Positions 49,889-60,421 of a stretch of DNA of 64,000 bases are shown in pieces; position 1 is the stretch's first letter, and every line of letters begins with the position of its first letter. The stretch lies in assembly GCF_014203795.1 (NCBI RefSeq), contig NZ_JACHJU010000002.1, positions 372,001 through 436,000 of the forward strand, written 5' to 3'. Source of the stretch: Streptosporangium album. Its GTDB lineage: Bacteria > Actinomycetota > Actinomycetes > Streptosporangiales > Streptosporangiaceae. A program made the position numbers and the translations under genes. The notes beneath the pieces are model-generated. The model was not told the DNA's origin. It saw nothing but the letters and a program-made list of their open reading frames with translations, and made no database searches.

Positions 49889-49962
49889 GGGGCGGTAGCT
49901 CAGCCGGTTAGAGCAGGGGACTCATAATCCCTGGGTCGCGGGTTCGAGTCCCGCCCGCCCTA
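49889..49962 (+). tRNA. tRNA with CAT anticodon (tRNA-Met, or tRNA-Ile2)
   Basis: A 74-nt cloverleaf: acceptor GGGGCGG/CCGCCCT, D-stem GCTC/GAGC, anticodon CAT at 49923-49925 in CTCATAA, T-arm GCGGG-TTCGAGT-CCCGC, discriminator A. Elongator Met and the lysidine-modified Ile2 both have CAT; sequence alone does not settle it here. Its 3' half is the attachment site for the following elements. Confidence 0.93.
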
Positions 49963-49964
49963 CC
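49917..49964 (+). repeat. Attachment-site copy 1 (tRNA 3' end)
   Basis: The 48 nt from GGGACTCATAATCC to CCCTACC recur exactly at 55292-55339 and with one substitution, over 44 nt, at 60055-60098. Being inside an intact tRNA gene, this is the bacterial-side junction. Confidence 0.85.
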
Positions 49965-49979
49965 TCTCGTGACCATACG

Positions 49980-50022
49980 AAAAGCGCCTCTGACCTGCTC
50001 TCTCGCGGTCAGAGGCGCTTTT
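49980..50022. terminator. Perfect terminator between tRNA and integrase
   Basis: A 16-bp stem AAAAGCGCCTCTGACC (49980-49995) with its complement at 50007-50022 and an 11-nt loop. Degenerate copies occur after attachment copies 2 and 3. Confidence 0.85.
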
Positions 50023-50103
50023 GTCATGTCCGGCTGTCCACGGCTGGCACCGGTTGCCTGCGGCTCGCTGTGCCGAATACGTGCCGAAGTTTCGGGGAGG
50101 TCG

Positions 50104-50856
50104 TCAGCTCTCGCCGAGAGCGTCGGTGATCCGGCGCTTGGCCGTCTCGTCCTGGCCCACGATGCATTTGGCGTAGATCTTCAACAGCACGTCCACGCTG
50201 TGCCCTGCCCACGTGGCGACCTGGGTGGGCGGTACTCCGGCGTTGAGCCAGGTGGACAGGCAGGTGTGCCGCAGATCGTAGATGCGCTTGCCGAGCGGAG
50301 AGGCGTACTCGGCTTCGCTCAACACCACCGCTCGGGCCTTGTCCCATGCGCGCCGGTAGGTGATGGTCGGCAGGTCGCCGCCGTTGACCCCGGTGAACAG
50401 CCGGCCATCCTTCTCGGGTGGGAAGGCAGCCACGTGGGCGCGGAGGAAACGAACCAGCTCGGGAGCGCAGGGAACGGAACGGCTTTCGCCCTCGGCGCGG
50501 TGCTTGAGCTGACGTTCCTCTCGCTGGGTGCCCTCGTCGGTCCACTCCTTACTGACGTCTGGAGCCGCGGTGCGCAACCGCAGCTCTCCCCAGGCGTTCG
50601 GCTGTTCCTCCCACCGACCGGTCTCCTCGTTCCGGACCAGTGCGGGCAGGATCACGTTCGCCTTACGGAGGTCCATGGCCTCCTCGGGCCGCAGGCCGGC
50701 GAAGTACAGGGCCGCGAAGAAGGCCACCAGCCTCGGGCCGCTCCGCTTCTGCGCGGCAACGGCGGCCACCCTCTCTGTCAGACTGCTGTGAGACATAGAC
50801 GTATGAGTCCTTTTGATGTGAAGCAGGGCGAGACGGGACCACCAAGACAGTGACAA
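50104..50856 (-). pseudogene. 5'-truncated tyrosine site-specific integrase
   Basis: The catalytic domain of a phage/ICE-type tyrosine recombinase: first Arg in FFAALYFAGLRPEEAMDL, then YDLRHTCLSTWLNAGVPPTQ (HxxR region), WAGHSVDVLLKIYAKC with nucleophilic Tyr. The arm-binding and core-binding N-terminal ~150 residues are absent; homology ends near 50790 and IS3-related DNA starts about 60 bp further on. The first ~20 residues of the open frame are not integrase-like. It once integrated the element into the adjacent tRNA; now presumed inactive. Confidence 0.85.
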
Positions 50857-50879
50857 TGACCTTCGCTGATCAGGCCGCC

Positions 50880-51308
50880 ATGACGGGGCAAAATGGTCAC
50901 GTGACCGATAAGCGGCCGAGCCGGCCGGTGCGCCGGACGTTCACCGCGGCCTACAAGACGCGGATCCTCGCGGCCTACGACGCGCTGCCCGAGGGCAGCC
51001 CCGAACGCGGTGCCCTGCTGCGCACCGAGAAGCTGTACCACTCGCATATCGAGCACTGGCGCAAGCAGCAAGACAACGGAACCCTGGCCGCGTCGACCGG
51101 TAAACCGAAGAAGGACGCCGAATCGGAGGAGTTGGCCCGGCTGCGGGCCGAGAACAAGAAGCTCAAGGCGGACGCGGCCAAACTCGCGGCGCGAAACGAC
51201 AAACTCGCCGGTGAACTCGGAAAGACCAGGACAGCGCTGGACATCGCGGGAAAAGCATTCGCGCTGCTGGAGAACATCTCAAGCAGCGCGGACTCCGACG
51301 AGAGCTGA
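50880..51308 (+). CDS. IS3 transposase OrfA
   Basis: A 142-residue helix-turn-helix protein: RRTFTAAYKTRILAAYDALP, YHSHIEHWRKQQDNG, then a leucine-zipper-like coiled coil (LARLRAENKKLKADAAKLAA). ATG 50880 was chosen (GTG 50901 possible) since the earlier GTG 50850 lies in the terminal repeat. A GGGAAAA slippery heptamer near its 3' end allows -1 frameshift into OrfB. Confidence 0.8.
   Translation: MTGQNGHVTDKRPSRPVRRTFTAAYKTRILAAYDALPEGSPERGALLRTEKLYHSHIEHWRKQQDNGTLAASTGKPKKDAESEELARLRAENKKLKADAAKLAARNDKLAGELGKTRTALDIAGKAFALLENISSSADSDES
51248..51254 (+). other. Programmed -1 frameshift site (G GGA AAA)
   Basis: In the OrfA frame the codons are GCG GGA AAA GCA, so GGGAAAA is a correctly phased X XXY YYZ heptamer. 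After a -1 slip the frame (from 51254) is open directly into OrfB without a stop. Confidence 0.65.
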
Positions 51309-52336
51309 ACCAGGCCCTCGATGAGTATTTCCCCGGCCTGGAAGCCGCCGTCGGCACGCAGCACGCGTGCCGGATCCTCGGGAGATCCCGCGCCGGCGTG
51401 TATCGGAAACGCCATCCCCGGCCGCGCGTGGCGCGTGAGCGCACGCCGTTTCATCATCCGGCCGAGTTGTCGCAGGAAGAACGCGCGCACGTGCTGGCGG
51501 TGCTGGACTCGCCCCGGTTCGTCGACCGGTCCCCGGGCCAGGTGTGGGCGATCCTGCTGGATGAGGGCACCTACCTGTGCTCGCAGGCCACCATGTACCG
51601 GCTCCTTCGCGAACGCGGCTCCTCCGGCGAGCGCCGCGCCCAGGCCGTCCATCCGGCGAAGAAGAAACCCGAACTGGAAGCCGACGGGCCGAACCAGGCG
51701 TGGTCCTGGGATATCACGAAACTGAAAGGACCTTCGCGCGGCGTCTACTATCTCCTGTACGTCATCATCGATATCTTCTCCCGTAAAACCGTCTGGTGGG
51801 AGATCTGGCCGACGGAAACAGGAACCCTTGCCAGAGAGTTCATCGAGCACGCCATTGAGGCCAATGGTGGGATTGCCCCGGGCGCGATTCACGCCGACCG
51901 CGGCACGTCGATGACGTCGAATACCGTTTCCGGCCTGCTCGCGTTGCTGGGGATCGATCAGTCCCATTCACGGCCGCGCGTGTCCAACGACAACCCGTAC
52001 TCGGAAGCACAGTTCAAGACGCTCAAATATTGTCCCGCGTTTCCTGGAACGTTCGGGTCCATCGAAGATGCCAACGTCTTTTGCGGCCAGTTCTTCCGAT
52101 ATTACAATAACGAACACCGCCATTCCGGTATCGGAATGCACACCCCGGCGTCCGTGCACGACGGCTCCGCGGCCGAGATCCACGCCAAACGGGTCGCCAC
52201 CTTGAACGCGGCCTTCCTGGCCCACCCCGAGCGGTTCCGCGGTCGTCGGCCCTGCCCGCCGCCGCTGCCCACCCGAGTGTGGATCAACAAGCCATCCACG
52301 ACCCTCCAGACCGGTAAGCATTCAACAGCGTTGTGA
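51254..52336 (+). CDS. IS3 transposase OrfB (DDE catalytic subunit, via frameshift)
   Basis: The open frame from the slip site gives ELNQALDEYFPGLEAAVGTQ, the HTH_21 region, then rve core motifs AWSWDITKLKGPSRG (D), GAIHADRGTSMTS (D) and NDNPYSEAQFKTLKY (E), with the IS3-typical YNNEHRHSGIGMHTP. A conventional GTG start is at 51398. The last seven codons (GKHSTAL) come from the IS66 left end, so the natural C-terminus has been replaced. Confidence 0.85.
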   Translation, partial: SIRAAGEHLKQRGLRRELNQALDEYFPGLEAAVGTQHACRILGRSRAGVYRKRHPRPRVARERTPFHHPAELSQEERAHVLAVLDSPRFVDRSPGQVWAILLDEGTYLCSQATMYRLLRERGSSGERRAQAVHPAKKKPELEADGPNQAWSWDITKLKGPSRGVYYLLYVIIDIFSRKTVWWEIWPTETGTLAREFIEHAIEANGGIAPGAIHADRGTSMTSNTVSGLLALLGIDQSHSRPRVSNDNPYSEAQFKTLKYCPAFPGTFGSIEDANVFCGQFFRYYNNEHRHSGIGMHTPASVHDGSAAEIHAKRVATLNAAFLAHPERFRGRRPCPPPLPTRVWINKPSTTLQTGKHSTAL

Positions 52337-53856
52337 CGTTGTGTGATGCTGGCTGGTCAGTCGGCCAGAGCGATCGGGGGCATCCAGAGGCTGCCGGTGA
52401 AGGCGCGGTGGATCGCGTCGAAGGCACCCAAGCCGTGCTTGCGAGCGGAGTCGAGATAGGAGCGTACGGCCAGCCAGGCGGCGGCACCGGTCTCGGATTG
52501 GTGGCAGCCGGAGATCTTCACCTGGGTCTTGACCGGCCGCAGCGCGCGCTCACCGGTGTTATTGGTGAACGGCACCAGGCCCGGCTGGTCGGCAAAGCGC
52601 AGCACGTCGGCACTGCGGTCGCGCAGGCGCTCCAGCAGGTTGCGGGCCGGGCTCTGTTTACGGCCCGGCGCCCGGGGGTGCAGCGACAGCCCGACGGCCA
52701 CCCCGTGGTGGAAGGCTTGCAGGTAGACCAGAGCCCGGTCCGGCGCAATGTCGGCCAGTCCCTGCTCGGCGGCCTTCTTGGCCTGCTTGTTCAACTCCGC
52801 CAGCGCCCAGCGCACCTGGAGTGGCCGGCGCTCATCGGGGTGGTCCTCGGCCGCGGCGGTCAACTCCCTGATCAGGTGCGCCCCGCATAACCGGTGCCGA
52901 GCATCGGGGTAGCCGTCGTACAAGGCGAGGGAATCGTGGACCACCACGCCGCGAAAGTCCGGCAGCACCCCCAGCGCGTTGGCGCCCTCGCGCGAGCGTG
53001 GCCCCAGCCCGAGCAGGGTCAGCTTCTCGGTGCAGGCCACATGCAGCCAGCGCCGCCCGCTACCGATCCGGGTGGTGGTCTCATCGGCATGCAGCACATG
53101 CCCCAGCGTCAGCAGCGCCCGGATCAGCTTCAGGCTGCTCTCCACCACAGTGGCGGCCTGGCCCAGCAGACCCGACACCCACCCGGTCGAGACGTGCGCC
53201 CCGGTCAGATCGGCGATCAGCAGCGCACACCGCTCGACCGGGACATGCTGGAAGACCAGCAGGTAGACCGCCAACGCGCGCAGATTCGGCCCATAAGAGG
53301 TTGGCGAGCCCGACACCGTCGCGGGCATCTGCGCCCGGGTCGTCGTTTCGCACGTGCAGCGGCACCGATGCGCCCGATGCTCGGTCACCGCCACGCTGAC
53401 CAGGGGAATGTCCCACACCTGGCGGCGTTCGAACCCCGTGCTGCCGGTCAGGTCCAGCCCGGCCCCGCACCCACCACACCGCTCGGGCAGGTGATCGGCG
53501 ACGGCGTCCGGACGTTCGACCATGGCCAGCCCGCCACCAGCCGAGCCCGGCTGGCCACCGCGTCGTCGGCCACTCCCCGGTACCGCCTTCTTCTGCGGCC
53601 GGGTGAAGGTATCGGCCGAGGGCGGCAGTGAGGAGTTACCCGAGTTACGGCCCAGCCGCCGTTCCAACTCCGCCACCCGAGCCGTCAACCGCTCGTTTTC
53701 GGCTCGCAACTCGACGATGATCCGCGCCTGCTCTACGACCAGGGCGGCAAGCTCGTCATACGACGGACGCCCATCCCCGGCCTGCACACGAAGATCATCC
53801 CACGGCTGGCAAGCCGCTCACGCCGTACTCGATCTCGTGGCCTGATGAATGCTTAC
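52314..53856 (-). mobile_element. IS66-family insertion sequence
   Basis: Terminal inverted repeats: 52314-52328 reads GTAAGCATTCAACAG and 53842-53856 is the complement of GTAAGCATTCATCAG (14/15). The GTAA tip is typical of IS66. It has a single transposase gene without tnpA/tnpB accessories. Flanking 8-mers do not match, so no target duplication remains. Confidence 0.85.
52357..53787 (-). CDS. IS66-family transposase (TnpC-like)
   Basis: A 476-residue protein: N-terminal coiled coil (IIVELRAENERLTARVAELE), LGRNSGNSSLPPSADTF, zinc-binding CGGCGAGL, then DDE core HADETTTRIGSGRRWLHVAC, VHDSLALYDGYPDARHRLCG and NNTGERALRPVKTQVKISGC (E). It begins at GTG 53787 and ends inside the left inverted repeat region. 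It looks intact. Confidence 0.9.
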   Translation of the reverse strand: MQAGDGRPSYDELAALVVEQARIIVELRAENERLTARVAELERRLGRNSGNSSLPPSADTFTRPQKKAVPGSGRRRGGQPGSAGGGLAMVERPDAVADHLPERCGGCGAGLDLTGSTGFERRQVWDIPLVSVAVTEHRAHRCRCTCETTTRAQMPATVSGSPTSYGPNLRALAVYLLVFQHVPVERCALLIADLTGAHVSTGWVSGLLGQAATVVESSLKLIRALLTLGHVLHADETTTRIGSGRRWLHVACTEKLTLLGLGPRSREGANALGVLPDFRGVVVHDSLALYDGYPDARHRLCGAHLIRELTAAAEDHPDERRPLQVRWALAELNKQAKKAAEQGLADIAPDRALVYLQAFHHGVAVGLSLHPRAPGRKQSPARNLLERLRDRSADVLRFADQPGLVPFTNNTGERALRPVKTQVKISGCHQSETGAAAWLAVRSYLDSARKHGLGAFDAIHRAFTGSLWMPPIALAD

Positions 53857-54119
53857 TAGTCGATAGATCACCTACGTGATGGCGGAGTCGGTTGCCTCCG
53901 CTGTGAGGTTGGCCTGAAGCGCGGTGCCAGCCTTGCGACTGGTCCGTTTTTCCGGCTTGCCCGCCGCAGAGCTTCCGTTCCTCGGGCTTCGCGGCCCTGC
54001 GATATAACGATACGGTTAAGGTGGGTTGCTGCGCACCGGATCGCCTTGTATTTCCACGACTGGTGCCGAGTACGTGCCGAAACTCCTACCAGGAAATACG
54101 TTTCTGCTGGTCAGAACGG
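53857..54119. other. Non-coding relic DNA beyond IS66
   Basis: No gene is supported. Near 54062-54090 a segment GTGCCGAGTACGTGCCGAAA resembles the integrase-3'-flank sequence found after each attachment copy (TACGTGCCGAAGTT), so this is probably a further integrase-end fragment. Confidence 0.4.
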
Positions 54120-54185
54120 TTTCGCGGTGGGTCTGTAAAGCCGTCGGCTCAGCCAGCGCAGATTCAAGTCCTGCACCTGCCGCCA
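54120..54185 (+). other. tRNA-Tyr-like 3' fragment (attachment-site relic)
   Basis: The sequence has an anticodon loop CTGTAAA (GTA, Tyr) flanked by a short stem, a variable-arm-like GTCGGCTCAGCC, a T-arm-like GCAGATTCAAGTCCTGC with one mismatch, and ends CCGCCA. There is no 5' half, so it cannot be a working tRNA; it looks like the attR of an element that used a tRNA-Tyr gene. Confidence 0.45.
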
Positions 54186-54304
54186 GCCAAACTGGCAGCT
54201 TAGAGCCCCTTGCCCAGCAGGAAGAAGTTTGCCGAATTGTTCTTGTAGGTGTTCAAGATCGTGAAGATCCAGGAGATCGGCACTCCGTGAGCCCCTCGCC
54301 TTGA

Positions 54305-54346
54305 GCTTGAACGCCGTCTTCAGACTTCGGAAGGCGGCGTTCAAGC
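54305..54346. terminator. Terminator of the small secreted-protein gene
   Basis: A 12-bp perfect outer stem (54305-54316 with 54335-54346) extended by CTT/AAG pairing, 12 bp beyond the minus-strand stop. Confidence 0.8.
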
Positions 54347-54357
54347 GTGGCGTCAGA

Positions 54358-54585
54358 TTAGTGCGCGAGGGCGTAGCGCCTGGGGCTGCTGATCGTGGTG
54401 CAGTAGTACCCGGCGGGCGCCAGCTTGAGGTCGATCTGGCAGCTCCTCGCGCCTGCCGCGGTGTACGGGTAAGTCTTGATGACTGTCTGTGCGGATGCCG
54501 GAACCGAACTGAGGGCGACACCGACGGCCGCCGTCGCGACGATGACGGACAGCCCCTTGGACATACGCCCCAAGCGAACCTTCAT
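54358..54585 (-). CDS. Small secreted protein with one cysteine pair
   Basis: 75 residues. The start is ATG 54585 with GGAGG 8 nt upstream (an in-frame TTG at 54600 contains that SD and is rejected). The Sec signal LSVIVATAAVGVALSSVPAS ends near ASA-Q. The ~43-residue mature peptide begins QTVIKTYPYTAAGARSCQID and has Cys49 and Cys62 with aromatic residues near the second (AGYYCTTISS). It has its own terminator. No family recognised; a cargo gene of the integrated element. Confidence 0.7.
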   Translation of the reverse strand: MKVRLGRMSKGLSVIVATAAVGVALSSVPASAQTVIKTYPYTAAGARSCQIDLKLAPAGYYCTTISSPRRYALAH

Positions 54586-55291
54586 GCGCAAAACCTCCAA
54601 CGTGTCGATTTACAGTGATCATGTCACGCGTGTCGGATACCTTCTAGATCTGCGACCCGCAGTGATCGTGTGGCGTACGTCACGTTCCCTGACGCCTCCG
54701 AAGCTCTGGCGTCGTTCAAGAGCAACGCCACCACCAGGAGCCAGTCAAGTGAGACTCGACACCACTGGATGAGGACTTTCTGTACATTTTCAAGCCGCTT
54801 CAATCCGTCGCTCTCACGGTGGGGGAGCGGGGCGACGCCGGGCCGAGGAGAGACGGCGAGCTGGCGGAAGGGGGAGAAGGAGGGGGTTCTACGCCGGACG
54901 CTGACAATGAAGCAGGACGGGGTTCGCAGCAAGGCAGTAGTGATCCCAGGATCACCACGGGGGCGAGGAGGGGGAGGCACGGCGCAGCCCTGGTAGCCAT
55001 TCACGGCCCGCATGTTTCCCTGGAGCCCTGCTGGGCCGTCTGTGGGCCGTCCGGGGTAGGCCAACGATGACAGACGGCGGCTAAGGCTGACGGTTCGACA
55101 GCGGGCTCAGCGCAGTGGCGCGCAGGTGCCTACAGGCCGCTTTGATCGGGCATCACTTCCTGCGCAACAAGCGCATCGAATAGCTCCCGGTGGAGCAGTG
55201 CCGTGCCGAATGCGTGCTGAAGTTCTGTGTAACCACGAGGCTTCAGCATCGTTTGCCCAGGCAGTGGGCATGATTGTCGGTTGTAGCGAGC
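54586..55291. other. Element-internal DNA without a supported gene
   Basis: CAGTGATC(A/G)TGT occurs twice (about 54613 and 54660) in the promoter region of the small secreted-protein gene. Open frames on both strands (54670-54996, 54624-55064) have poor composition and no SD. Near 55200, GTGCCGAATGCGTGCTGAAG is another integrase-tail-like fragment just before attachment copy 2. Confidence 0.4.
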
Positions 55292-55339
55292 GGGACTCAT
55301 AATCCCTGGGTCGCGGGTTCGAGTCCCGCCCGCCCTACC
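55292..55339 (+). repeat. Attachment-site copy 2
   Basis: Identical over 48 nt to the tRNA 3' half at 49917-49964, with unrelated sequence in place of the tRNA 5' half. It is followed by a degenerate copy of the terminator (55354-55398) and of the integrase 3' flank (TGTGCCGAATACGTGCCGAA at about 55444). Confidence 0.85.
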
Positions 55340-55584
55340 CCTCGGTACCACACGAAAAGCGTCTTTGACCTGCTTGTTTGCGGTCGGGGGCGCTTTCGTC
55401 TTGTCCAGCTGTCCACGGCTGACGCCGATCGTTTGCGGCTGGCTGTGCCGAATACGTGCCGAAGTTCCGGGAAAGACCACCGTCCATCAGCACCTGGGCC
55501 GGCGCTTGATGGCCTCAGGGTGCTCTCAATGCTGGGGCTGGTTGGCTACCCATCCCGCAGAACAGGACTCCGCTTCTGTCTGAG

Positions 55585-57334
55585 CCTGAATCCACCGAGC
55601 GTTATCAGGTGAGGGCTGGACCGTAGACATGACGATGCCCTCTGACCTGGCAGGATGGGAGTTCTCTACGCTTCCAGCCGCCGAATCAAGAGGGCACGTC
55701 GTAAGTGCGATTGTCTCACGCTCCCGCCCACACCCATGCGATCTTCGATGACCAGCACACGGTCGCCTACGCAGGCCTGCTGCCGGTGATGCGCCTGGCC
55801 GAGCGCTGTGACCTGGCCGGTCTGGCTCAGGAGCACGTGACCATCGCCGACCGACTCGGGGTGAATGCCCCGCTGAAAATCGGCTCGATCGTGGCCGGGA
55901 TGATCGCCGGGGCCGACAGCATCGATGATCTGGACGTGCTGCGCCACGGCGGGATGGATAAGTTGTTTGCCGGGATCCGCGCCCCCTCCACGCTCGGGTC
56001 GTTTCTGCGCTGTCTGACGTGGGGCAACGTGCGGCAGATCGGGAAGGTCGGCCGCCGCCTGCTGGCCCGTCTGGCCGCGCACACACCGCTGCTGCCCGGC
56101 GTGGACGTGCTGGCGTTCCTCGATCTGGACTCGATGCAAAAACGGATTTACGGGCCGACCAAACAGGGCGCCGGGTTCGGGCACACCAAGATTCAAGGCA
56201 AGAGCCTGCGGGTCCGCGGTCTCAACGTGCTCGCCTCGGCCCTGTCCACCCCACTGGCCGCCCCGGTCATCACCGCCAGTCGGTTGCGCGGCGGCACCGC
56301 CAACTCCGCCCGCGGCGCAGACACCTTCGTGACCGAGTCGATCAATACGGCCCGGGAGGCCGGAGCCACCGGCATCCTGCTCTGCCGAGGCGATGCGGCC
56401 TACTACAGCGCCAAGGTCATCGGCGCCTGCCGGCGAGCCGATGTCCGGTTCTCCTTCACCGCGAAGATGGACCCCAAAATCAAGGCGGCGATCGCCGCGA
56501 TCCCCCAGGGCGCCTGGACCCCGATCAGCTACCCCAACGCCATCTTGGACGAGGAATCCGGGCAGTGGATCTCCGATGCCGAGGTCGCCGAGACCCGCTA
56601 CACCGCGTTCACCTCCAAGAAGGGGCAGGCCGTAACCGCCCGCCTGATCGTGCGCCGGGTCAAACGACTGGGTGAGCAGACCGACCCCGGCCACCACCCG
56701 TGCTATCGCTACCACGCCGTGTTCACCGACACTCCGTATGAGCTGATCCAGGCCGAAGGACAGCATCGTGATCACGCGATCATCGAGCAGATCTTCGCCG
56801 ATCTGATCTCCGGGCCGCTGGCTCACCTGCCCTCCGGTAATTTCGCGGCCAACGCCGCCTGGCTGGCACTGGCCACGATCAGCCACAACCTGCTCCGCGC
56901 CGCCGGTTGCCTGTCCGGAGCCCGCTGCGCACGAGCACGTGGAGCCACTCTGCGCCGCCACCTCATCGCCGTACCCGCCCGCCTCGCCCGGCACGGGCGC
57001 GGCCATATCACCCTCCACCTGCCCGGCCACTGGCCCTGGCAGCCCGCCTGGATGAACCTCTTCGACGCGCTTCGCTCGCCACCGCTCGCCCGAGCCGCTT
57101 GATATCCCATCTCACAGGCACCACCCCGCCAGCACCTTGACGGCCTACCCAGCCACCGGCGACACCGCCACCGACCGCCCCGAACCGCATGACCCGGACA
57201 AGCCGCAGAACCCGCCAGCGGCGGCCCCATCACGCCCGAAAACAGGACTCCACCTGCCGAACACCGAGAGAAACGGCCCTCATGGAGGAATCGAACTTAG
57301 AAACGATCATTCAAAGACGCTCGGTGGATTCAGG
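55585..57334 (+). mobile_element. IS1380-family insertion sequence with target duplication
   Basis: Perfect 18-bp inverted repeats CCTGAATCCACCGAGCGT (55585-55602) and its complement (57317-57334), flanked on both sides by CTGAG (55580-55584 and 57335-57339). It carries one intact transposase. The clean duplication suggests recent insertion. Confidence 0.88.
55705..57102 (+). CDS. IS1380-family transposase
   Basis: A 465-residue DDE transposase (Tnp_1 IS4-like superfamily): VLAFLDLDSMQKRIYGPTKQ (first D), ILLCRGDAAYYSAKVIGACR (second D), RDHAIIEQIFADLISGPLAH (E). The N-terminal segment AYAGLLPVMRLAERCDLAGL is typical of IS1380. The frame is uninterrupted, starting at GTG 55705; it looks functional. 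Confidence 0.9.
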   Translation: MRLSHAPAHTHAIFDDQHTVAYAGLLPVMRLAERCDLAGLAQEHVTIADRLGVNAPLKIGSIVAGMIAGADSIDDLDVLRHGGMDKLFAGIRAPSTLGSFLRCLTWGNVRQIGKVGRRLLARLAAHTPLLPGVDVLAFLDLDSMQKRIYGPTKQGAGFGHTKIQGKSLRVRGLNVLASALSTPLAAPVITASRLRGGTANSARGADTFVTESINTAREAGATGILLCRGDAAYYSAKVIGACRRADVRFSFTAKMDPKIKAAIAAIPQGAWTPISYPNAILDEESGQWISDAEVAETRYTAFTSKKGQAVTARLIVRRVKRLGEQTDPGHHPCYRYHAVFTDTPYELIQAEGQHRDHAIIEQIFADLISGPLAHLPSGNFAANAAWLALATISHNLLRAAGCLSGARCARARGATLRRHLIAVPARLARHGRGHITLHLPGHWPWQPAWMNLFDALRSPPLARAA

Positions 57335-57359
57335 CTGAGTACCTCATACCTCCAGGCTG

Positions 57360-57927
57360 TCACCTGGGCAAACAGTACTGGCAAGCGCCTCGGGCAACTC
57401 GAGACGCCCAGATTTCTTCATCAGCACGCCGCCGGCGGAGCATCAGCGTCGTGATGGCCGGAATGACCGCCCGACGATGGAACCCGAACGGGTCTCTGAT
57501 GAGCGCCCGGAAGGGGAGGTCCTCCCATGAAAGGCCTGTTTGCCCTTTCATCATCGCGGCGGCGGTCTCGTGGCCGACGGCCTCGGAGACATCCAGCTTG
57601 TCGAAGTAGTTGGCCAGGCCGAACGTCATCTCTCCCTGTCCGCTCGACCAGCGCAGGTCGAGCAGCCGGTAGCTTGGCCGATTCTCGAACAGGGTGGGCG
57701 GGTCCATGTAACGGACAGCCGAGGTGTACCGGTCATACGCTGCGGCAGCCAGGGCGGCACGGTTCCGGTTGAGGTAGCGACGGCCCTCCAGCCACCGGCG
57801 TTGGCTGGCCGCCACCGGATCGGGAGACGTTCCTGCTTGTCGGCAGACGGTGGAGCAGCCCCGCGAGGAGAAACCGATCATCCGGAGTGAACACGGACCT
57901 GGCCACCTGCCGCTGCGTTATCACCAA
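57360..57927 (-). pseudogene. Frameshifted, 3'-truncated conserved actinomycete gene
   Basis: Frame one from 57927 reads VFTPDDRFLLAGLLHRLPTS; after a frame change near 57830 it continues QRRWLEGRRYLNRNRAALAA, MTFGLANYFDKLDVSEAVGH and RALIRDPFGFHRRAVIPAIT. This is the pattern of a ~280-residue actinomycete hypothetical family whose C-terminal third is missing here. The IS1380 element lies just beyond the lost end. Function unknown; no catalytic motif. Confidence 0.5.
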
Positions 57928-58134
57928 CTAATGCCGCAGCACCAAGATTCGGCACCCGCAGGGTGCACCGCGGTCCTGCGCGGTGACATGAAGGTCGCCG
58001 AACGCCTGCTTGTCGCATCCCACCCACACCGAGCAAGGCCTGACCACGCCGGTGCGATCGCGAGCAGTCTACATATTTCCATTGAGCGGGATTATGCTCT
58101 GGGCAGTCCTGAAGTGGATCACATGGAGGTGCCC

Positions 58135-58218
58135 ATGAGAAAGATGACCATCCGCCGTAAGAGCGCGCTGCGCCTGCTGTCCGGCGCCCGCCGGCTCTGG
58201 ATCGAGTGGTGCTGGTAG
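58135..58218 (+). CDS. 27-residue cationic peptide with aromatic C-terminus
   Basis: GGAGG (58125-58129) lies 5 nt before ATG 58135; the frame reads MRKMTIRRKSALRLLSG, ARRLWIEWCW and stops at 58216. It carries seven basic residues, three Trp in the last seven positions (W-I-E-W-C-W) and a penultimate Cys, and has no signal peptide. The TPR gene starts 55 nt downstream. The composition suggests a signalling/modified peptide or an amphipathic membrane peptide. An upstream ATG at 58123 would place the SD inside the gene and is less likely. Confidence 0.6.
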   Translation: MRKMTIRRKSALRLLSGARRLWIEWCW

Positions 58219-58273
58219 CTGCCGGCACGGCGGGCGCTCCCGGGCGCCCGCCCCTGCGGCGATCGGCCCGGCC

Positions 58274-59977
58274 GTGACCGGCGAGCCGGGCGGCTACGAC
58301 TGCCACCGCGACCACGGGCCGTACGCCGGGGTCGCGGCCTTCCTCGGCCGGATCGCCGCCGACCGTCCCCGCCTGGCGTCCCGCCACAAGGTTGAGCTGC
58401 ACGCCATCGCACCCTGGCTCGACCACGCGGCACGACCGGCCGCCGAGGAGGAGCCGATCCGGTTCCATCCCGCCCGGCGCACCGCCTGCCTGGCCTACGG
58501 CGCGGCGGAGTTCGTGGCGGCCTGGGCGGGCACGCTCCGGCACCCGGTCACGGTGCGGTTCGACCACGTCGGCAATGCCGACGAGACCACCTGCGAGCTG
58601 CTGGACGCGCTGATCCGCCGGATCGGGTCGTCCCCGGTGCGCCTGGACCTGCGCGACGGCGGCGCCCGCAAGCCGGTAGCGGCCGACCCGGCGCCGGAGG
58701 CGATGCGCACGGCCCTGGGCGACAGCCTGGCCCGCGGCTTCTACCACCACGCGGCCCGAGTTGCCGGGCGGGGGCGCGCCACGGTGACCCCGGACGGCGA
58801 CTTGCGGCACTGGTGGGCGTTCACCACTGGTCTGGCCACCGCCCTGGCGGCGCTGGACCGCGCCGCCGAAGCGCTCGACCTTTACCACGAGGCGCGCGCC
58901 GCCACTGACGACCCGAAGATCACCATGTCGGCCGCGTACGCCACCGCCATGTTGTACGCCAGGCACCTGTCGGCGGCCGACCAGGACCCGGCGCAGGCGC
59001 GGCACTTGCTGGAACAGGCGCTCCACCTCGCCGCCGGACTGAACGACCCGCGGCAGCGGGTGCTGTCCACCGTCTTCTACGAGCAGGGCCTGGCGCTGCT
59101 GGACACCAGGGCGGGTGAGCCCGCCCGCGCGCTGCGGCTGATCGACGACGGGCTGGCCCGGCTGACGGCAGTGCTCACCCCCGGCGAGCGCCCGCAGGAC
59201 CTGGCCCGGTTACGCCACAACCGGGCGCAGGTGCACCTGGCCCTGGGCGATCCGGCACAGGCCCTGGCCGACCTCAACACCGTGATCGCACACGACCCCG
59301 GCAACTGTGAGTACTACGTGGACCGGGCCGCCCTGCACCGTGCGGCGGGTCGGTCCCAGGCCGCGATCAGGGACTATGGCACCGCGATCCGCCTGGGACC
59401 GCACCTGCCCGAGGCGTACTACAACCGGGCCGTGCTTCAGCAGGAGCGGGGCCGCCTCGATCGGGCGCGTGACGACCTGGAGCGCGCGCTCGCCGTTGAC
59501 CCCGGGCACCTCGACGCCCGGATCGCCTTGGTCAACCTGCAGGTGGAGCGCGGCGCGTTCGACGCGGCCGAGGTGGGCGCGCGGGCCGGGCTGACGCTGG
59601 CCCCGCAGGAGCCCGCGCTGCTGTGCACCCTCGGGCTGATCCGCTCGGAGCGTGGCAGCCTCGCCGAAGCCGACGAGCTGCTCACTCGGGCCCTGGCCTG
59701 GGATCCGGAGCTGGTCGAGGCATGGACGAACCGGGCCGCCGTCCGGTTTGAACGCGGCGACGTGGCCGCCGCCGTGGCCGACCTGGACCGGGCGGTGGCG
59801 CTGTCGGCGGCGCCGGTGCCCCGCTACAACCGGGGCACGGCGCTGATGCGGCTGGGGCGGTGGGACGAGGCCGCCCGCGACTTCGCCCACGCGCTCGCCC
59901 AGCCCAGCCTGGACCGGGCGCTGCGACGCGACCTGCGCGCGGAACTTGCCCGCTGCCGTCGCGCCATGGCCGGATGA
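58274..59977 (+). CDS. TPR-repeat protein, probable partner of the upstream peptide
   Basis: A 567-residue soluble protein. Residues 1-130 form an unrecognised domain (GPYAGVAAFLGRIAADRPRL, HPVTVRFDHVGNADETTCEL) perhaps related to the sensor end of STAND-type ATPases, without a Walker A. From about 170 to 565 there are roughly ten TPR helices pairs, with clear units such as AIRDYGTAIRLGPHLPEAYY, RARDDLERALAVDPGHLDAR and AVADLDRAVALSAAPVPRYN. No HTH, kinase or membrane segment. TPR arrays of this size bind peptides in RRNPP systems, so the adjacent 27-residue peptide is a candidate ligand; this is inference. GTG 58274 start. Confidence 0.8.
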   Translation: MTGEPGGYDCHRDHGPYAGVAAFLGRIAADRPRLASRHKVELHAIAPWLDHAARPAAEEEPIRFHPARRTACLAYGAAEFVAAWAGTLRHPVTVRFDHVGNADETTCELLDALIRRIGSSPVRLDLRDGGARKPVAADPAPEAMRTALGDSLARGFYHHAARVAGRGRATVTPDGDLRHWWAFTTGLATALAALDRAAEALDLYHEARAATDDPKITMSAAYATAMLYARHLSAADQDPAQARHLLEQALHLAAGLNDPRQRVLSTVFYEQGLALLDTRAGEPARALRLIDDGLARLTAVLTPGERPQDLARLRHNRAQVHLALGDPAQALADLNTVIAHDPGNCEYYVDRAALHRAAGRSQAAIRDYGTAIRLGPHLPEAYYNRAVLQQERGRLDRARDDLERALAVDPGHLDARIALVNLQVERGAFDAAEVGARAGLTLAPQEPALLCTLGLIRSERGSLAEADELLTRALAWDPELVEAWTNRAAVRFERGDVAAAVADLDRAVALSAAPVPRYNRGTALMRLGRWDEAARDFAHALAQPSLDRALRRDLRAELARCRRAMAG

Positions 59978-60054
59978 CTGCCAACCGGGGCGGACATCGG
60001 CGGGATCAATCCCAACCCGAGGGAAAGCTTTCAGGAAAGCGGGGGACTTCACCT

Positions 60055-60098
60055 CTCATAATCCCTGGGTCGCGGGTTCGAGTCCCGCTCGCCCTACC
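60055..60098 (+). repeat. Attachment-site copy 3
   Basis: 44 nt matching the tRNA 3' end with a single C-to-T change at 60089. It is followed by a copy of the terminator stem (60113-60157) and of the integrase 3' flank (TCCGGCTGTCCATGGCTGTC). Confidence 0.85.
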
Positions 60099-60421
60099 CT
60101 CCGTGACCATGACGAAAGCGCCCCTGACCTGCATGTCTGGAGCCAGAGGCGCTTTCGTTGTGTCCGGCTGTCCATGGCTGTCACCGGTTGTTTGCGGCTG
60201 ATCGTTCCCAATGCGTTCCCAAGCTCGATGAAGATCACCGGTCGTCGCTGCAAGCGAGGGCGCATGTCGCGTTGGATCTACAGTGCAGTTGATTGATCGT
60301 CAAGTGAGCACTTTCACCACACCGTCAAGCCACCGCTGACGCGCTGAAGGCGGGGGTTGAGGAACAGGCGGACCGGATCCGGCGCTTAGGGGCAGAGACC
60401 GCGCAGTACGAAGGTCCCGGG
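60099..60421. other. Terminator and integrase-flank relic, no intact gene
   Basis: After the terminator copy the sequence parallels the 3' flank of the integrase gene at 50022-50100 for about 100 bp, then diverges. A plus-strand open stretch near 60335-60425 (ADALKAGVEEQADRIRRLGA) is coding-like but has no start. Confidence 0.45.

Follow-up and report, generated by a model that had tools for sequence, protein, structure and literature searches.

Peptides read by tetratricopeptide repeat (TPR) proteins are the basis of RRNPP quorum sensing (Rap, Rgg, NprR, PlcR, PrgX), a form of communication described for Bacillota. Does an actinobacterium with a 27-codon open reading frame (ORF) directly in front of a gene for a large TPR protein possess something comparable? 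The pair lies in a 64,000-nucleotide stretch of the Streptosporangium album genome (contig NZ_JACHJU010000002.1, positions 372,001 to 436,000; hereafter the window, in whose coordinates positions are given). An earlier note on this DNA had described an ORF with a Shine-Dalgarno sequence and a Trp-rich end followed 55 nt later by a TPR gene, and the sequence agrees. We find that the ORF is a gene and that it and the TPR gene together make up a genuine two-gene unit, conserved among soil actinobacteria. By analogy with known systems, the most likely reading, to which we give a probability of about 0.46, is that the peptide is a ligand and the TPR protein the intracellular receptor dedicated to it. 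The parts of the unit are as follows.

58055-58134, + strand: conserved stretch 5' of the peptide ORF, probable promoter or 5' leader of the cassette (alignment of loci)
58125-58129, + strand: Shine-Dalgarno sequence GGAGG of the peptide ORF, 5 nt 5' of the ATG (sequence)
58135-58218, + strand: peptide gene, 27 codons, MRKMTIRRKSALRLLSGARRLWIEWCW, ending WIEWCW (ORF, selection, conserved pairing)
58135-58179, + strand: leader-like half, codons 1-15, common to the wider family (alignment with family peptides; dN/dS 0.351)
58180-58215, + strand: core-like part, codons 16-27, SGARRLWIEWCW (dN/dS 0.075; 88 of 105 pairs usable)
58274-59977, + strand: TPR protein gene, 567 aa, GTG start (ORF, Pfam, orthologs)
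58274-58670, boundary approximate, + strand: N-terminal 'GPY' domain, resembling the STAND ATPase region after Walker A (hhalign)

A DNA pattern for W[IFLV]EWCW followed by a stop matched in 15 of 297 genomes of the host family, Streptosporangiaceae, and the reversed control pattern in none. The ending found was W[IF]EWCW-stop, in 15/15 cases immediately 5' of a homologous TPR gene whose product is 79-95% identical to that of the window; seven of these loci lie outside the genus Streptosporangium. In a first genome sample, the small ORF accompanied all eight close Streptosporangium TPR orthologs, the window's included. The peptide frame is under purifying selection, with a ratio of mean nonsynonymous to mean synonymous divergence (dN/dS) of 0.263 across the 15 ORFs (104/105 pairs, those without dS being left out) and of 0.273 for 40 codons of the TPR gene; selection is strongest over the C-terminal 12 codons. 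Frame +1 contains stops in 15/15, and frame +2 is open in 11, with a dN/dS of 2.5 (38 pairs). Residues G17, A18, R19, R20, E24 and C26 are invariant in 15/15 W[IF]EWCW peptides, while codons 17-20 vary. Placement before the TPR gene in 15/15, together with dN/dS, rules out a chance ORF. Upstream, GGAGGTG is the same in 9/9 aligned loci, and 49% of columns are identical over the conserved stretch (nine loci) versus 4% in the preceding 80 columns. The GTG start of the TPR gene is replaced by ATG at the same position in two orthologs (L006 and L008).

The pair belongs to a wider family. A profile of the N-terminal ~300 residues of the TPR protein, built from 15 proteins, matched in 190/297 host-family and 49/394 host-class genomes at E 0.001, counts that take in weak matches (E ~1e-4); ten weak-match loci that we inspected had a STAND-type frame in eight cases, with a P-loop in seven of these. 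The peptide upstream of the relatives' TPR genes is different but alignable, typically MKKIIVHKPGTVKLSGTASPKHVG (a composite of several observed forms) or MKRIVVRKPGTARLAGTSSVIHKG, with a common basic N-terminal half and a differing C-terminus. The earlier note had tied the pairing to the presence of a small ORF before homologous TPR genes and to conservation of its frame; besides the selection described above, a related peptide of 24-34 residues stands 5' of 66 of 71 loci found through the TPR gene (59/64) or through a putative protease described below (7/7). This tally counts each TPR locus once and requires 250 nt or more of upstream sequence, eight TPR matches with less (six of them protease-linked) having been dropped. 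It excludes 81 loci found by the peptide pattern itself (80 with peptide), which are biased; redundancy removal took 209 matches to 152 loci. The counting pattern was written after the peptides had been seen, and 57 of the 66 match it, the other nine being W[IF]EWCW forms. As controls, the pattern matched at 1/71 loci on the opposite strand and in 0/290 downstream windows. Across 84,980 species genomes, it matched at least 119 stretches; among the 80 matches listed, 76 are from Streptosporangiaceae, the others including Streptomyces, Actinacidiphila and Nocardia, and one, from Desulfobacula (L178), is a likely chance match. A Frankiaceae member and a second Streptomyces member also belong to the peptide family. 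Full-text literature searches, some judged by their top-ranked papers only, returned no description of such pairs, and the family is apparently both wide and undescribed.

The C-terminal ending W-x-x-W-C-W, which the earlier note had expected to mark the family, proved to be one of several C-terminal types upstream of homologous TPR genes and is thereby ruled out as the family's ending. In a gap-free register, residue 22 is Trp in 15/15 window-form peptides, His in 77/77 distinct short-form peptides and Tyr in 11/13 distinct MKKI-type protease-form peptides, the other two having Pro and then Tyr; two longer protease-form peptides that do not start with MKKI are omitted from this comparison. 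Short-form peptides have an H-x-x end and measure 24 aa in 76/77 cases. Residue G10 is invariant in the short and MKKI-type protease forms and mostly Ser in the window's form, and L14 recurs in most. The C-terminal class tracks the TPR tree, with 12 changes versus 56.1 when shuffled (0/200 shuffles as low), an agreement that fits a ligand-receptor pair. In two midpoint-rooted TPR trees, the WIEWCW proteins lie outside the short-form clade (support 100 in both), among protease-linked proteins and on a long branch; their joining to L092, L093, L229 and L230 carries a long-branch warning in one tree and an approximate likelihood-ratio (SH-aLRT) support of 90 in the other.

Pfam TPR models match the window's TPR protein down to E 3.9e-30, with the best-scoring stretches at residues 311-543. 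The GPY domain begins about 15 residues from the N-terminus. An alignment of this domain from ten relatives, with the window's protein excluded, matched seven P-loop STAND ATPases in hhalign with a probability of 94.7 and E 5.9e-8 over 54 columns around Walker B. The sequence GK[ST] is absent from the window's protein, and Pfam matched no DNA-binding, helix-turn-helix (HTH) or Rap-type N-terminal part in it. Since the Walker B region matches and GK[ST] is missing, the window's TPR protein appears to combine the remnant of a STAND domain with TPRs.

Deep members of the family carry a third gene. In Streptomyces tateyamensis, Actinacidiphila epipremni and Nocardia aurantia, tandem peptides (e.g. 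MKKIVVRKPGSVRLTSAAQPLYGCTCVAA) are followed by a HExxH protein with a weakly PqqD-like N-terminus and, in the first two species, by a long GPY-TPR gene; the N. aurantia stretch ends inside that gene. The three-gene arrangement also occurs in Streptosporangium species, with the peptide MKKIKIRKVGPIRLTAAACSIYKVPN, which aligns without gaps to that of the window. The order peptide, protease, TPR holds in 13/13 protease loci not chosen by peptide and in 18/18 when peptide-chosen loci are included, and a second protease-locus set (n = 25), which overlaps that of the 71-locus tally, has the peptide in 24. The HExxH motif is present in 5/5 proteins examined. The Pfam PqqD model reached E 0.044 in the L176 protein, short of the cut-off, and did not match that of L128; a lasso PqqD model reached E 0.063. 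A sequence comparison with PDB gave nothing at E 1, and none of the protease models in Pfam matched; we call the protein a putative protease from its HExxH motif, its place in the operon and stretches that look hydrophobic by eye. At E 1e-60, it occurs in 24/297 host-family genomes and in 7/15 W[IF]EWCW genomes, all seven Streptosporangium, which rules it out as a required partner. The WIEWCW TPR proteins lie outside the short-form clade and among protease-linked ones, so that at least two losses of the protease are probable. An AfsR-type regulator gene lies divergently at 15/15 'CSIYK'-type loci and at 0/10 others, one of which (L308) extends only ~600 nt upstream; the label 'AfsR-type' comes from matches to Trans_reg_C, BTAD and NB-ARC for three of these 15 regulators and, for the others, from similarity to one of the three.

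Between the two genes of the window lies a hairpin, part of which could instead pair with the ORF.

58229-58252, + strand: hairpin GGCGGGCGC-tcccgg-GCGCCCGCC between the genes, attenuator-like, without a T run (pairing in 15 sequences)
58184-58192, + strand: ORF segment (codons 17-20) able to pair with the left arm of the hairpin (alternative fold)

All nine pairs of the hairpin are preserved in 15/15 sequences, with two-sided changes in two pairs, in one sequence each. In protease forms (15 loci), the longest spacer stem has a median of 12, compared with 10 in WIEWCW forms (nine loci) and 8 in short forms (116 loci), with shuffles at 6-7; it exceeds shuffles in 10/15, 7/9 and only 45/116 loci, respectively, the WIEWCW median of 10 standing against 7 in shuffles and '7/9' meaning that at most 1/20 shuffles reach the stem. 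Most simply, the hairpin would lower the receptor relative to the peptide. The alternative fold retains 8-9 of 9 pairs (G-U counted) at this place in 14/15 sequences and is predicted to be likelier than the hairpin in 4/15, the window not among them. It may be a by-product of GC-rich codons, and it leaves room for an attenuator on top of the hairpin's basic role.

We favour a ligand-receptor reading by analogy with SHP-Rgg signalling, in which, according to the parts of PMC3150281 used here, the membrane HExxH protease Eep matures a short peptide that is bound by an Rgg regulator; the family at hand resembles a pairing of peptide signal and receptor. We propose that the small gene would yield a 27-residue pro-peptide whose basic N-terminal half is recognised by handling machinery and whose C-terminal part (about SGARRLWIEWCW) serves as the functional ligand. 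Entire or cut by a cellular protease, and exported or not, the peptide would sit in the TPR groove, and the remnant STAND domain would relay the signal to a partner, while the hairpin would hold receptor levels low and peptide levels high. In the ancestral form, a dedicated HExxH protease that recognises the leader would have been encoded between peptide and receptor, joined in one branch by an AfsR-type regulator alongside the ancestral-type locus. The window's form, outside the large protease-less clade, would have lost the protease and would move as a 1.95-kb cassette. In its boldest version, which we hold only tentatively and consider doubtful, this would be an actinobacterial intracellular peptide signalling family independent of RRNPP, with a basic leader, lineage-specific C-terminal 'words' around an aromatic residue or His at position 22 (Tyr, His, Trp), ancestral maturation by an operon-encoded leader-recognising HExxH protease, STAND-derived TPR receptors, at least two protease losses and one mobile version (WIEWCW).

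Several observations weigh against a ligand with its receptor. As the earlier note had remarked, no export signal is seen in the window's peptide, by hydropathy (longest hydrophobic run 3, best 9-residue hydropathy 0.94). Five of the 64 TPR loci have no peptide, and at L119, L177 and L186 a family peptide occurs without a GPY-TPR gene. The protease was not found in the window's own genome, nor in seven others of the 15 W[IF]EWCW genomes, and no neighbour gene is common beside the cassette in seven orthologous loci, pairs of close loci excepted. The sister subgroup of WIEWCW has Tyr at position 23, not 22 (P22 in 2/13), the spacer energy z-scores of WIEWCW loci are unremarkable (median -0.5), and joint inheritance alone would also explain the agreement between C-terminal class and TPR tree. 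Lastly, of ~16,100 unrelated ORFs scored with a profile trained without WIEWCW peptides, 26 outscore the window's peptide and 3 outrank the best WIEWCW ortholog, a ranking that counts the L246 and L247 peptides as family; by sequence homology alone, the window's peptide is thus only moderately similar to its family. A 'null' ORF list still contained real family members.

The peptide could instead be a precursor of the ribosomally synthesised and post-translationally modified peptide (RiPP) type. Enzymes encoded elsewhere would then modify or trim its core, and the TPR protein would act as chaperone, scaffold or immunity factor. This is the main rival, and we consider it unlikely. It would account well for the conserved leader half and varied core, the weakly PqqD-like HExxH partner of relatives, the tandem precursors in L176 and L128, the AfsR-type neighbour and the hairpin 3' of the precursor gene. 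As the earlier note had also seen, however, no modifying enzyme was found adjacent: Pfam identified none among seven neighbours in the window, the rest of the genome not being searched, and none was apparent among the relatives' neighbours, read by eye or compared mutually. The HExxH protein that relatives possess is absent from the window's own genome, and the five peptides tested matched no NCBIfam or Pfam family. RiPP precursors with enzymes bearing a RiPP recognition element (RRE) share the leader/core make-up and, in relatives, the weakly PqqD-like partner (parts of PMC7470986 and PMC12710340), and differ from the window's pair in having modifying enzymes of the kind not found adjacent here; the terms M50, tetratricopeptide and TPR have 0 occurrences in the main texts of these two papers.

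Two further explanations are less probable still. A cationic, Trp-rich peptide that is membrane-active, harmful inside or outside the cell and held by the TPR protein, like a toxin-antitoxin or bacteriocin-immunity pair, would suit the charge of +7, the three C-terminal Trp residues and a small cassette at varying places; we regard it as improbable, given that related peptides in this position contain no Trp and are hydrophilic, that the longest hydrophobic run is three residues and that PADLOC matched the TPR protein only through its TPR region, to a PrimPol model, and did not match the peptide. The least probable, and in our view a distant prospect, is that the ORF encodes a leader peptide through which the TPR gene is attenuated in response to tryptophan (and cysteine). 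Three Trp codons and one Cys codon fall within the last six, a conserved hairpin follows the stop, and the ORF segment can pair with the left arm instead in 14/15 sequences. Against it, the ORF aligns without gaps to Trp-free family peptides, and the six invariant residues are kept while codons 17-20 vary; hairpins also stand behind Trp-free family members, that of the window has no T run, and the TPR gene does not encode an enzyme of Trp metabolism.

With a peptide ligand and TPR receptor as the preferred reading, RRNPP is the obvious comparison, and the earlier note had drawn it. The published signature, in the parts of PMC10075063 that we used, comprises a pro-peptide of 10-100 aa encoded -60 to 400 bp from the receptor gene, a receptor of 250-500 aa with TPRs, and a secretion tag on the pro-peptide, SHP and PrgQ excepted. 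The size of the window's peptide (27 aa), the 55-nt distance and the TPRs all fall within it, and the HExxH protein of relatives recalls Eep (PMC3150281, in part). The peptide/TPR pairing in the note's comparison thus stands, whereas the export signal (by hydropathy), the receptor length (567 aa) and the N-terminus, a STAND-like remnant in place of HTH or Rap helices, do not; the system is also actinobacterial, and its protease is operon-encoded and weakly PqqD-like, or absent. By that signature, as far as those parts of the paper give it, the pair is not an RRNPP member and would at most work like one.

Other known systems share individual features. FxSxx-COOH/VMAP-ternary systems, as described in the parts of PMC7159879 used here, likewise combine an actinobacterial short peptide, a metallopeptidase gene and a STAND-type/TPR partner, and the short form of the present family has a comparably fixed C-terminal tail (H-x-x end). 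They differ in that the FxSxx motif is missing here, the window's peptide ending in WIEWCW and family peptides otherwise too; in that no radical SAM/SPASM protein was found by Pfam in the seven neighbours or among the relatives' neighbours read; and in that the protease-like protein is of another kind (HExxH in a hydrophobic protein). AfsR/SARP and MalT/LuxR-type STAND regulators resemble the GPY-TPR proteins in combining a Walker B region with TPRs, and an AfsR-type regulator neighbours one branch of the family, whereas the window's protein has neither GK[ST] nor a Pfam DNA-binding domain. The family, which is conserved in Streptosporangiaceae and whose deeper members occur in Streptomyces, Actinacidiphila, Nocardia and Frankiaceae, makes TPR-read peptide pheromones in actinomycetes, whose signals are typically small molecules according to a survey (PMC10075063, in part), a directly testable question. 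If RiPPs are involved instead, it would point to precursors without a known enzyme class.

The region on the left of the cassette contains the following features, with a last repeat on its right.

49889-50096, + strand: tRNA-Met gene (ARAGORN, 49889-49964) and first att-like repeat (49917-50096)
50107-50856: integrase remnant, match below the Pfam cut-off
51398-52333: rve-type transposase
52360-53787: IS66 transposase
55292-55471: second att-like repeat, 87% identical to 49917-50096
55705-57102: DDE_Tnp_1_4 transposase
60055-60223: att-like repeat right of the cassette, tRNA-Met 3' end and flank, 83% identical to 49921-50089

Duplicated tRNA 3' ends are a trace left by integration. Each att-like repeat spans ~170 bp and contains the tRNA-Met 3' end, the second and third copies being 79% identical, and two att-flanked segments stand in tandem behind the tRNA-Met gene (49889-60223). 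The earlier note had placed the pair on an integrated element; the three repeats and an integrase match below the Pfam cut-off support this in part. In seven other Streptosporangium loci (12.5-19 kb each), DNA similarity starts at 57,949-58,069 and ends at 59,965-60,014, and only L021 shares the tRNA-Met region beside the cassette. Duplicated tRNA 3' ends occur near it in four of the eight loci, namely the window (three copies), L021, L022 and L024. With similarity confined to it and tRNA ends at 4/8 loci, the cassette stands as an isolated unit of 1.95 kb that often, though not in every case, lies close to a tRNA site. There is no sign of phage carriage, with no match in phages and 11 pattern stretches in viral contigs, none confirmed; among plasmids, one record matched, an 11.85-Mb Nonomuraea sequence, at 34% identity.

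Further arrangements were seen in individual family loci.

L170:493-1681, L131:3998-5190, L194:6749-7820, L098:7437-8810: family peptide (TPKHADP-like end) behind an all-TPR protein
L131:5251-6510 (Pfam), L098:6124-7428 (by eye): major facilitator superfamily (MFS) gene directly 5' of a GPY-TPR gene without its own upstream peptide
L119:4202-4276, L177:1809-1901, L186:5207-5281: family peptide without a GPY-TPR gene behind

The second, all-TPR protein (~350 aa) occurs in 4/253 loci, with a family peptide directly 3' in 4/4; three of these loci were found by the peptide pattern and one (L098) by its GPY-TPR gene, and the pairing is suggestive, not a rate. Close to the L119, L177 and L186 peptides is a regulator-like gene with a GRQHRE motif; this gene is conserved and is found upstream of 27/32 VIHKG-type loci. 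Tandem precursor genes are present in L176, L128 and L216, L176 also carrying a diverged copy (MKKTVVRESGSVRPSG...). Distant protease relatives (scores 131-240 versus at least 490) had no GPY-TPR gene within ~1.5 kb on each side, and the strict HExxH pattern was not seen in them. Two of them are preceded by peptides, MKKLIVRRLESVKTSAATSCSVVVA in L246 and MKKLVVRKLEPIKTSANADCVPAAA in L247, again with no GPY-TPR gene, possibly an outer branch of the family. In L232, L233, L234, L236, L237, L241 and L242, the partner of the distant protease relative is a different protein, 360-380 aa long, which by eye looks PqqD/ThiF-like; these loci probably represent another peptide system. Finally, the TPR genes of L061, L062, L064, L073, L085, L087 and L099 lie just behind ftsY, whose C-terminal end was recognised by eye, and ftsY is a neighbour at 14/48 P[RK]H-type loci.

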